From: Acidobacteriota bacterium
GTDB lineage: Bacteria; Acidobacteriota; Terriglobia; Terriglobales; Acidobacteriaceae
Assembly (NCBI GenBank): GCA_021836865.1
Contig: JAKBHH010000014.1
Location: forward strand, 1 to 55,256
Direction: 5' to 3'
DNA length: 55,256 nt
Shown: piece by piece, positions 1 to 4,058 of the stretch
Position numbering within the stretch: position 1 is the first letter of the stretch
Layout of the letters: every line of letters starts with the position of its first letter
Program-made: the position numbers and the translations under genes
Notes under the pieces: generated by a model
Told to the model about the DNA's origin: nothing
What the model saw: the letters and a program-made list of their open reading frames with translations, nothing else
Databases searched by the model: none

Positions 1-2340
1 GGCGAGGGTTTGCGGATGGTAGTAGTTGTTCCAGGTGTCGGGCCAAAGGACCACCGTGGTCGCGGGGAACGGTGACGGCCCAGGGCCTGTCGATTCCCAG
101 GTCTCAGAATCGAGACCTGGGGCACCCGGCTTTCTCGATTTGACGTAGTTCTTGTCCGCGAGGTGGGGCAACTGGCGCTGCTGGGCGACTCCGGCGATGC
201 GCTTGATGAGCGGGCTGGTGATGGGGCCGGTGAGAAGCGCGTTGGTGAGCGCGGGCGCGAGGGAACCCCAGCGCGCGAGCCTGTCGGCGAATCCGAAGAG
301 GTAGTGATGGAGCGGGTGCAGGTGGCCCTTGTAGCGCTGGGCGAGGAATTCGGATTTGTAGGCGGCCATGTCGACCTGGACCGGGCACTCGGATTTGCAG
401 GCCTTGCAACTGAGACAGAGATCGAGCGCCTCATGCACGGTCTTGCTCTGGAAGCCTTCTTCGCGCAGGGACCCGGAGAGCATCTCCCAGAGGAGACGGG
501 CGCGGCCGCGGGTGGAGTGCTGCTCCAGACCGGTGGCGCGGTAGCTGGGACACATGACGCCGCCGGTGGTGTTGCGACATGCGCCAATGCCCACGCAGCG
601 CTCCGTGGCGCGGGTGAACGAGCCGTTGTCTTTGGAGAACACGAAGTGCGTTTCCGAGGTCTCAGAAGCGAGACCTGGGGCGCCCGTGGATGGGGGGTGC
701 GAGGGGCCGTGGCGGAGATTCTCAACGGGGTCGTAGACGCGCACGGCATCGATGAGCTTGCCGGGATTCATGCGGTTGTCAGGATCCCAGAGGGCCTTGA
801 ACTCGCGGAAGGCGTTCATCAATGCGGGGCCGAACATTTTGGGCAGCAGGGCGGCGCGCGCCTGGCCGTCACCGTGCTCGCCGCTGAGCGATCCGCCGAG
901 GGAGAGGACGACATCGGTGGCGCGGTCGAGGAACTCGCGGAAGTTGCGCAGGCCCTGCTCGGTCTTGAAGTCGAAGTTGATGCGCATGTGGACGCAGCCC
1001 TGACCGTAGTGGCCGTAGAGCGGACTGCGGTAGCCGTACTCCGCCATGAGAGCGGTGATGCGGCGCAGGTATTCACCAAGGCGCACGGGCGGGACGGCGG
1101 CGTCTTCCCAACCCTCCCAGCGGTCGGGCTCTCCGGGGACGAAGACGACTGCGCCGAGAGCGGACTCGCGGACATGCCAGACGCTGGCTGCCTCGGCAGG
1201 GGTGCAGATGTGCGCGGCGGGCGGGGTGGGCCATGACTGCGATGCGCGGGCGAGGCTTTCGGCCTGGGCGCGGGCTTCTTCCGCGGACCATGCGCCCATC
1301 TCGACAAGGAGATAGCCGACGCCGGGCGGGAGCCGGTCAAGATCGCGAAGGGAGAGGCCCTTGCGGCGCATGAACTCGACGAGCAGATGATCGAAGCCTT
1401 CAAGGCCGATGGGGCCGTGTTCGAGGGCGAGCGGGACGGCGTCAGCGGCAAGAAATCCATCGGGAAATCCGAGGACGGTGAGGACGCGGAAGGGCGGACT
1501 GGCGGCAAGGTTGAGCGTGGCGGAGACGACGGTGGCGCAGGTGCCCTCACTGCCGACCAGCGCGCGGGCGACGTGGAAGCCGTTCTCCGGGAGCAGGTCG
1601 TCGAGGTTGTAGCCGGAGACGCGGCGCGGGATGCGCGGGAATTTTTGGTTGATCTCGGAGGAGTATGTATCGCGAATGCGCGCGAGGCCGGCGTAGATGT
1701 GCCCGATGCGGCCGCCGGCGCGGATGAGGCTTTCGAGCTGGTCGTCGCTGGTGCGTCCGACGGTCATGCGGGTGCCGTCGTAGAGGACGATGTCGAGCGA
1801 CTCGACGTTGTCGACGACCTTGCCGGCGAGGAGGCCGTGGACGCCGCAACTGTTATTGCCGATCATGCCGCCGAGGGTGCAGCGGGAGTGGGTGGCGGGA
1901 TCGGGGCCGTAGGTGAGGTGATGGAGTTCGGCGGCGTCGCGGAGGCGGTCAAGCACGATGCCGGGCTGGACGCGGGCCAACTTGGTCTCGGGATCGATGG
2001 AGTCGAGCCGGTTCATGTAGCGCGAGTAGTCAAAGACGACGGCGACGTTGGCGCCCTGGCCGGCGAGCGAGGTTCCGGCGCCTCGCGGCAGGACGGCGGC
2101 TCCTGTGGCGCGGCAGGCGGCGAGGGCGGCTTCAACGTCGGCGGCGTCGCGCGGGTAGAGGACGCCGATGGGAAGCTGGCGGTAGTTGGAGGCGTCCGTG
2201 GCGTAGAGGGCGCGGGAGCCGAGGTCGAAGAGGACGTCGCCCCGGAGCGTGGCTTTGAGACGCGCCTCGAGCTCGCGGTGGGCGGCGAAGCTCTCATGGG
2301 CGAGGGGCGTGGCGTTGGAAAGAATGGAAAAAGTGCTCAC
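1..2340 (-). CDS. FAD-binding oxidoreductase with C-terminal 4Fe-4S domain (partial)
   Basis: A long open frame on the minus strand starts at a GTG at 2340 and runs off the window start, so the C-terminus is missing. Residues ~40-270 look like the PCMH-type FAD-binding domain of D-lactate/2-hydroxyglutarate-type dehydrogenases (PRGAGTSLAGQG, then a GGMIGNNSCG segment). Around residue 580 comes an RCVGIGACR segment and MCPSY. Near residue 640 is a CLSCKACKSECP 4Fe-4S ligand motif, followed by VVLWPDTWNNYYHP, as in the CCG-domain region. This order matches the large YdiJ-like flavin/iron-sulfur oxidases, which oxidise 2-hydroxyacids and pass electrons towards quinone; the substrate is not determinable here. 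The protein carries two in-frame palindromic insertions (96-130 and 654-686). The start is uncertain, with no clear ribosome binding site before the GTG. Confidence 0.88.
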   Translation of the reverse strand, partial: MSTFSILSNATPLAHESFAAHRELEARLKATLRGDVLFDLGSRALYATDASNYRQLPIGVLYPRDAADVEAALAACRATGAAVLPRGAGTSLAGQGANVAVVFDYSRYMNRLDSIDPETKLARVQPGIVLDRLRDAAELHHLTYGPDPATHSRCTLGGMIGNNSCGVHGLLAGKVVDNVESLDIVLYDGTRMTVGRTSDDQLESLIRAGGRIGHIYAGLARIRDTYSSEINQKFPRIPRRVSGYNLDDLLPENGFHVARALVGSEGTCATVVSATLNLAASPPFRVLTVLGFPDGFLAADAVPLALEHGPIGLEGFDHLLVEFMRRKGLSLRDLDRLPPGVGYLLVEMGAWSAEEARAQAESLARASQSWPTPPAAHICTPAEAASVWHVRESALGAVVFVPGEPDRWEGWEDAAVPPVRLGEYLRRITALMAEYGYRSPLYGHYGQGCVHMRINFDFKTEQGLRNFREFLDRATDVVLSLGGSLSGEHGDGQARAALLPKMFGPALMNAFREFKALWDPDNRMNPGKLIDAVRVYDPVENLRHGPSHPPSTGAPGLASETSETHFVFSKDNGSFTRATERCVGIGACRNTTGGVMCPSYRATGLEQHSTRGRARLLWEMLSGSLREEGFQSKTVHEALDLCLSCKACKSECPVQVDMAAYKSEFLAQRYKGHLHPLHHYLFGFADRLARWGSLAPALTNALLTGPITSPLIKRIAGVAQQRQLPHLADKNYVKSRKPGAPGLDSETWESTGPGPSPFPATTVVLWPDTWNNYYHPQTLA
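96..130 (-). repeat. Palindromic element inside the FAD oxidoreductase (copy A)
   Basis: CCCAGGTCTC (96-105) and GAGACCTGGG (112-121) form a perfect 10-bp stem around a 6-nt loop, followed by the tail GCACCCGGC (122-130). On the gene strand it is translated in frame as GAPGLDSETWE. It is nearly identical to copy B at 654-686 in the same gene. Confidence 0.85.
654..686 (-). repeat. Palindromic element inside the FAD oxidoreductase (copy B)
   Basis: AGGTCTC (657-663) and GAGACCT (670-676) pair around a 6-nt loop. Two further C-G pairs lie outside one mismatch, and the tail is GGGGCGCCCG. It is translated in frame as GAPGLASETSE. It differs from copy A at only a few positions, so the two are recent relatives rather than chance hairpins. 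Confidence 0.85.
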
Positions 2341-2564
2341 GCAGGAATGGTAGCGCGGAGGACTGGCGGGCGCATCCGCGGAGCGGAACTAGTCAGTATG
2401 GAGTGACGAGAGACGGGGTGCGAGACCGGGGGTGTGGATGGGATGGAAGGTTGGGGCAATGCGCAGAAGCGGTGGCGCGGGCTGGCCCGGGCTTGCACGG
2501 AACGGGGGCGAGTGGCCGGTGAATCTCCTTGACATGGGAGCAGGCCGACCGGGAGGATGAGCGC

Positions 2565-4058
2565 ATGATGAAGAGACTTCCCCTTTTCCTACTGATATGT
2601 GGAGCGACGGCAGCGGGCAGCGGGCTGTGCGCGGCGCAGACGGCGCAGAACCAGTTGACGGTGGACGGGAAACTGAACCAGGAGCTGGTGCGGCTGGGCG
2701 GACAGATGATGCTGGCCGGCAAGGCGTATGAGTACGACGAGCACCTGGCGGATGACATTGGGCCGCGGCTGACAGGTTCGGCGAACTACGACAAGGCCGT
2801 GGCGTGGGCCGAGGATGAGTTCAAGCAGATGGGGCTGAAGAATGTGCACGGCGAGTCGTGGACGATTCCGGCGACGTGGGAGCCGGATGGCGTGGCGACG
2901 GCGCGGATGATTGCGCCGCACGAGCAGGCGCTGCACCTGGTGAGCGAGGGATGGAGCCCATCGACGCCGCCGGGGGGTGTGCGCGGGCAGGTATTTTATC
3001 TGGATGATGCGTCGGTGGAGGGCGTGAAGGCCGCGGCGTCGAAGATCAAGGACAGCATTGTGCTGGTTGATGGCGACTCGATGCGGAAGCACCCGGGCCA
3101 GCCGATTGGCAAGCTGTTTGACGCGATCGACCTGCTGGCGAGCGAAGGCGCGCGGGCGCTGGTGCTGGGCCTGGGCGCGGTGAACAACGCGCCGAGCATG
3201 GTGGGTCTGACGGACTTCAGGGGCACCGAGGCCACCATCGTGACGGCGAACTTGGGCATGGAGGACACGCTGCTGCTGAAGCGGCTGCTGGCGAAGGGCC
3301 CGGTGGAGATTGAGTTCAGCTTCAAGAACCGGATTCGCAAGGACGTGACGGTACACAACGTGGTGGCGGAGATTCCGGGGCGCGAGGACGGCGGCGAGTA
3401 TGTGATTGTGGGCGGGCATCTGGACTCGTGGAATCCGGGAACGGGCGCGCAGGACAACGGGACGGGCGCGGCGAGCGTGATGGCGGTGGCGCAGGCGGTG
3501 GAGGCAGCGGGGCTGAAGCCGCGGCGGACAATGCGGTTCATCCTTTTTGGCGGCGAAGAAGAGGGATTGATCGGGTCACTGCGCTACGCTCATGCGCACG
3601 CGGCGGATGCGGCGAAGTGCGTGGGGGACTTTGTGACGGACACGGGTGACGAGGCGCCGAAGGGGTGGTACGTCTTTGGGCGCAAGGACGAGGCGGACGC
3701 GGTGACGGTGCTGAAGCCGCTGCTGGCCGATCTGGATGCGGGGGGAACGACAGATGAGGGACGCTACACGTTCTCGACGGACGAAGGGCCTTTTCTGGCG
3801 CAGGGAGTGCCGTCGTTTGTGCTGTGGACGCCGATGGAGAAGTACATGCAACTGCACCACAAGCCGAGCGACACGTTTGACAAGGTGGACCCGCGGGACC
3901 TGAACCTGGGCGCGACGGTGGTGGGGCTGACGGCGTATGCGTTTGCGGATTCGCCGACGACGCTGAGGCACTACTCGGCGACGGAGGTGGAGGACGAGCT
4001 GAAGGGGATCAAGGCGCTGGATGAGTATAAGGATATGCAGGCGCACGGGCTATTCTGA
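2565..4058 (+). CDS. Secreted M28-family zinc aminopeptidase with PA domain
   Basis: The 497-residue product starts with a signal peptide (about residues 1-25, charged MMKR then hydrophobic). A protease-associated region (~130-240) precedes the M28 catalytic domain. Zinc-ligand and catalytic candidates are visible: H285 and D287 in GGHLDSW, D297 in AQDNG, E331-E333 in FGGEEEG, and H431/H432 in LHHKPSDTF. The family comprises co-catalytic two-zinc aminopeptidases and carboxypeptidases that digest peptides outside the cytoplasm. The start at 2565 is chosen because GGAGG at 2552-2556 lies 8 nt upstream; an upstream TTG at 2529 is in frame but would spoil the signal peptide. A terminator follows, so it is probably monocistronic. 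Confidence 0.93.
   Translation: MMKRLPLFLLICGATAAGSGLCAAQTAQNQLTVDGKLNQELVRLGGQMMLAGKAYEYDEHLADDIGPRLTGSANYDKAVAWAEDEFKQMGLKNVHGESWTIPATWEPDGVATARMIAPHEQALHLVSEGWSPSTPPGGVRGQVFYLDDASVEGVKAAASKIKDSIVLVDGDSMRKHPGQPIGKLFDAIDLLASEGARALVLGLGAVNNAPSMVGLTDFRGTEATIVTANLGMEDTLLLKRLLAKGPVEIEFSFKNRIRKDVTVHNVVAEIPGREDGGEYVIVGGHLDSWNPGTGAQDNGTGAASVMAVAQAVEAAGLKPRRTMRFILFGGEEEGLIGSLRYAHAHAADAAKCVGDFVTDTGDEAPKGWYVFGRKDEADAVTVLKPLLADLDAGGTTDEGRYTFSTDEGPFLAQGVPSFVLWTPMEKYMQLHHKPSDTFDKVDPRDLNLGATVVGLTAYAFADSPTTLRHYSATEVEDELKGIKALDEYKDMQAHGLF

Follow-up and report, generated by a model that had tools for sequence, protein, structure and literature searches.

The YdiJ-like dehydrogenase gene and its two in-frame palindromes

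The window, by which the whole analysed stretch of 55,256 nucleotides is meant, opens on its minus strand within the gene of a FAD / 4Fe-4S dehydrogenase, in which two copies of a palindromic element are located in two linkers. The following features were distinguished:

1..127, no strand assigned: assembly overlap of 127 bp, shared exactly with the end of contig C13 (sequence identity)
1..2340, minus strand: YdiJ-like FAD / 4Fe-4S dehydrogenase gene, a GlcD-GlcF-type fusion (open reading frame, contig join, Pfam, NCBIfam)
46..156, minus strand: linker A, ahead of the cysteine-rich (CCG-type) domain with the motif WPDTWNNYYHP; 21-67 aa among orthologues
95..127, minus strand: copy A of the 33-nt REP (GGGTGCCCCAGGTCTCGATTCTGAGACCTGGGA), translated in frame as GAPGLDSETWE
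601..711, minus strand: linker B, between the FAD-oxidase_C (DPVENLR) and 4Fe-4S (RCVGxGACR) domains; 28-91 aa among orthologues
653..685, minus strand: copy B of the 33-nt REP, whose stem has one mismatch, translated in frame as GAPGLASETSE

The gene is cut at the left edge of the window. Contig C13 ends in 127 bases identical to window positions 1-127, and with this contig attached a single frame of 1000 amino acids stays open through both copies, with the FAD_binding_4, FAD-oxidase_C and 4Fe-4S domains intact according to Pfam. As the truncated gene piece matches the NCBIfam YdiJ model at 360 bits, below the equivalog cut-off of 1350, the name YdiJ-like is preferred. The contigs are metagenome-derived, and the break between contigs C13 and C114, with its overlap of 127 bp, falls exactly at the last base of element A, which suggests a branch in the assembly graph caused by strain variation or a repeat.

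The initial annotation had described one palindrome occurring twice, in frame, within a single oxidoreductase gene that remains open through both copies, with the translation GAPGLxSETxE. Both copies were found where it had placed them, with the peptides and the open frame as given above. On the basis of 277 copies, the limits of the element could be set at 33 nt (GGGTGCCCCAGGTCTCGNTTYTGAGACCTGGGA), comprising a 5' GGGTG tag, a 10-bp stem and a 6-nt loop. The 10-bp stem of copy A is perfect, while that of copy B carries one mismatch (CCGAGG/CCTGGG). The full pattern is matched three times in the window, one of these matches being copy A on the opposite strand, versus zero expected (100 shuffles). 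No Rfam match was obtained at the gathering threshold in window positions 1-3000.

Association of the palindrome with RAYT transposases

A search of the host genome for the element, which the initial annotation had proposed, confirmed a dispersed repeat, with about 30 sites, counted from individually retrieved loci, versus zero for the reversed pattern. The element is furthermore present in 74/79 genomes of the same genus (one to 81 copies each; zero for controls), and nearly all of its named matches belong to the Acidobacteriaceae. Eight Y1_Tnp genes are encoded in the host genome. The transposase encoded on contig C129 matches the NCBIfam model REP_Tyr_transpos (NF047646; 93.4 bits against a cut-off of 80) as well as the Pfam Y1_Tnp domain, its translation includes the HUH motif PEHVHLL and the catalytic tyrosine region YIHRNPV, and its gene is situated between inverted copies of the 33-nt element. 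Most of the other Y1_Tnp genes in the host genome are flanked by different hairpin families of their own, usually with the same GGTGCCCC tag. Similarly, many of 30 related RAYT loci (the C129 gene included) are flanked by a pair of the 33-nt element and others by their own hairpin types.

The element thus combines a short (20-50 nt) dispersed hairpin with a cognate, flanked RAYT and a location mainly outside genes. In place of a GT[AG]G or CGTC foot, a conserved GGGTG tag precedes CCCC, and on account of this tag the term REP is used here in its broad, RAYT-defined sense. Judged from its sequence and genomic context, the palindrome is a RAYT-associated REP element in that sense, and the layout of hairpins and RAYT gene corresponds to a REPtron arrangement. 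Published REPs and REPtrons (PMC3733652, PMC6006769, PMC8266576) share with this system the short dispersed hairpin, the inverted pair around the RAYT gene and the separate hairpin family of each RAYT. They differ in their GT[AG]G foot, whereas here GGGTG stands directly before the stem and the host is a member of the Acidobacteriaceae; some RAYT classes are known to have atypical stem feet (PMC6006769). Tyrosine transposase genes with flanking inverted repeats (TIRYT and TIR) have been reported from the acidobacterial taxa Koribacter, Terriglobus, Acidobacterium and Granulicella, and the TIR of Koribacter ORF 1552 has a genomic repeat family (PMC3733652). The arrangement of a tyrosine transposase gene between inverted repeats is alike, but the TIR motif quoted there, GGGGWSAS, does not match GGGGCACC.

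Occupancy of the two linkers among orthologues

In a comparison of 63 orthologues from the genus, the motifs beside linkers A and B are conserved while the length of the linkers varies, and many orthologues are hairpin-free in both linkers. Both sites are empty in G057 (L199), whereas the insert at A is common to the host genome, G056 (L197) and G066 (L198). At B, in-frame palindromes number zero in G057, one in the host genome, two in G056 and three in G066, arranged in tandem, and the host junction resembles that of G056 with one unit probably lost between two GGGTGCCCC tags. The peptides can accordingly be considered lineage-specific insertions, as the initial annotation had supposed. The case that it named as refuting this, a palindrome-free homologue with the same residues, was looked for among the 63 orthologues, and none was seen.

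Relatives of the 33-nt element occur at A or B in L064 and L065, while palindromes of other families are found at A or B in other species (e.g. L060, L061, L200 and L241), some of them with imperfect arms. One such family (GGTCCCTCG...GGGGACC) reaches 5 to 51 copies per genome in the five genomes tested; in four of these the 33-nt element is single-copy or absent. The linker hairpins of L062 and L242 are single-copy in their own genomes and were left out of the count of proven REPs. All TGCCCC tags in the YdiJ linkers of the 63 orthologues, a few of which represent native sequence, are read in one frame.

In the YdiJ gene tree, G066 clusters with the empty-site G057 at 100% support; the ValS tree disagrees, so that the history of the insertions is complicated by loss or recombination. 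A tree-based count of insertion events is a rough guide only, as the automatic classes held false calls (L061 B, L071 B and L242 A). The conflict over G066 also suggests that the ydiJ-like gene itself has recombined between species.

Exchange of a hairpin within ValS

A third copy of the element in the host genome is in frame within ValS, again in the GAPGLxSETWE frame, where it falls in a gap relative to the Thermus ValS. G057 and four further genomes lack the insert. In ValS of G066, a different hairpin of the GGTCCC type, single-copy in that genome, occupies this very site between near-identical flanks. The ValS hairpin was thus exchanged in place, with either direction being possible.

In-gene copies of the element

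Using as criterion that coding sequence must continue in one frame on both sides of a copy, 26/299 copies (8.7 %) were classified as in-gene, versus 58 % of random sites, the codon model having been trained on a single gene family; random sites thus pass about 6-7 times as often as copies of the element. The element is stop-free in five of its six frames, four of which are used, in both orientations. The suggestion of the initial annotation that the element is adapted to coding sequence finds no support in these figures, although 8 of about 17 family-supported in-gene sites are read in the GAPGLxSETWE frame.

The family-supported hosts among acidobacterial genomes include UvrC, PcrA/UvrD, an AddA-like helicase, RecG, PurL, Tgt, Era, HpnG and an Fe-S/CCG oxidoreductase. 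RNase R and IspE are hosts in two species each; the RNase R copies occupy the same RNB-S1 linker and the IspE copies one loop, in each case in opposite orientations, which indicates independent entry. The shared position of the UvrC copies in L127 and L301 may reflect one inherited event. Hosts related to DNA repair or RNA make up 9/14, versus 1/20 random ORFs (Fisher p = 3e-4, hand classification), while for repair genes alone the difference is not significant in this small sample (p = 0.13).

Several candidate hosts were set aside. YbeY (L162) is weak, the TIGR00043 model aligning without a gap, and the copy in RecR (L113) probably lies in an upstream extension. The long ORFs spanning copies in L049, L040, L044 and L047 have low-complexity translations of high-G+C sequence and failed the codon-usage test.

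Spread and persistence of the in-gene copies

Both copies in the YdiJ-like gene are explained with a probability of about 0.85 by RAYT-driven spread of the REP element, landing in two linkers and persistence through tolerance. The TnpA_REP/RAYT of contig C129 probably copies the 33-nt non-autonomous hairpin and inserts it as single-stranded DNA. Such spread would scatter hairpins widely, with selection purging most of those within genes, and two copies would have landed in flexible interdomain linkers of the dehydrogenase. Insertions in folded domains or dispensable genes would be lost. Persistence may be largely neutral, since the frame survives an insertion of 33 nt, only one of the six frames contains a stop, and an insertion of 11 residues in a linker would be tolerated. 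The linker array would subsequently change by loss between shared GGGTGCCCC tags, putatively through recombination, and by a swap for the hairpin of another family. The bias towards housekeeping hosts may arise because indispensable genes keep in-frame insertions visibly.

Three observations count against this account. The 5' tag is GGGTG rather than the canonical GT[AG]G, the YdiJ and ValS trees disagree over G066, and the tags in the YdiJ linkers are more uniform in frame than neutral, independent insertion predicts. This uniformity is best explained by shared ancestry together with in-place exchange between tag-sharing families, while selection on the peptide is possible.

A more far-reaching proposal, that linkers of core enzymes in this acidobacterial genus are long-term homes of in-frame REPs in which successive families replace one another in place with the frame retained, and that the repair and RNA bias stems from a function of the inserted peptides or hairpins beyond survivorship, we regard as unlikely. 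Adaptation of the element to coding sequence, with a preference for genes in a favoured frame and a useful peptide in the manner of an exapted Rickettsia palindromic element (RPE), is rather improbable: the GAPGLxSETWE frame of both YdiJ copies, the ValS copy and 8 of the about 17 supported sites, the single frame of every TGCCCC tag in the YdiJ linkers and the leaning of the hosts towards information processing agree with it, but it is contradicted by the scarcity of in-gene copies, the use of four frames and both orientations, the independent entries of opposite orientation into RNase R and IspE, and the many orthologues with empty linker sites. Very improbable is the retention of the hairpins for an action at the nucleic-acid level in multidomain proteins, e.g. 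ribosome slowing between domains or mRNA stability; the positions between domains, the near-perfect stems and the occupation of the same linkers by different hairpin families would suit such a role, but not the many orthologues hairpin-free in both linkers, nor the imperfect arms of some other-family hairpins. Ancestral residues, with the palindrome a codon-level coincidence or a product of gene conversion within the gene, might account for two like copies inside one gene but can be dismissed, being refuted by the empty sites of G057, the lack of palindrome-free orthologues with the residues among the 63 compared, and the about 30 sites elsewhere in the genome.

Comparison with in-gene repeats in other bacteria

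In-gene REPs are an already known, if little studied, phenomenon. A study of 2013 (Di Nocera 2013, PMC3733652) described REPs within genes as well as double insertions, and found repair and RNA genes to be hit in excess; a report of frame-keeping REP insertions inside tnpA_REP genes followed in 2018 (Quentin 2018, PMC6006769). The published elements are thus alike in being in frame within genes, including DNA-repair, RNA and tnpA_REP genes. RPEs are likewise palindromes inserted in frame into numerous unrelated protein genes, and a gene may carry two of them, as uvrB of R. conorii does (PMC3733652). The resemblance is one of behaviour only, and the two systems differ in phylum as well as in the mainly intergenic location of the copies and the presence of a cognate RAYT here.

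Recurrence of several families in the same orthologous linkers and the in-place swap in ValS were not found described in these sources (PMC3733652, PMC6006769, PMC8266576). What the present data would add is an acidobacterial system, the repeated occupation of the same linkers and the replacement of one hairpin family by another, in place, in ValS. With the same linkers holding zero to three hairpins of several families, they offer a natural experiment on how mobile DNA drives protein evolution, in which the empty sites of relatives make gain, loss and exchange datable and testable for cost. Furthermore, an unrelated phylum and a REP type without the canonical tag echo the published in-gene excess in DNA-repair and RNA genes, so that survivorship and selection as causes of this excess can now be weighed against each other.

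Additional repeats at linker B and beside a RAYT gene

Linker B of L198 contains a CCTGTCCTGAGCTCGTCGAAGGA-like repeat nested within a REP element, which is in turn nested within the ydiJ-like gene without closing its frame. In linker B of L063, L077, L079 and L220 a recurring peptide of the type GQxPSAxPRQKxxA is found, which seemingly derives from another short repeat that lacks the GGTGCCCC tag. Finally, a regular five-copy array of a different REP hairpin (CATGTCGTCCGC...GCGGACGCCATG), repeating about every 106 bp, is located beside a RAYT gene on contig C19 (L036, positions 1902-2355).
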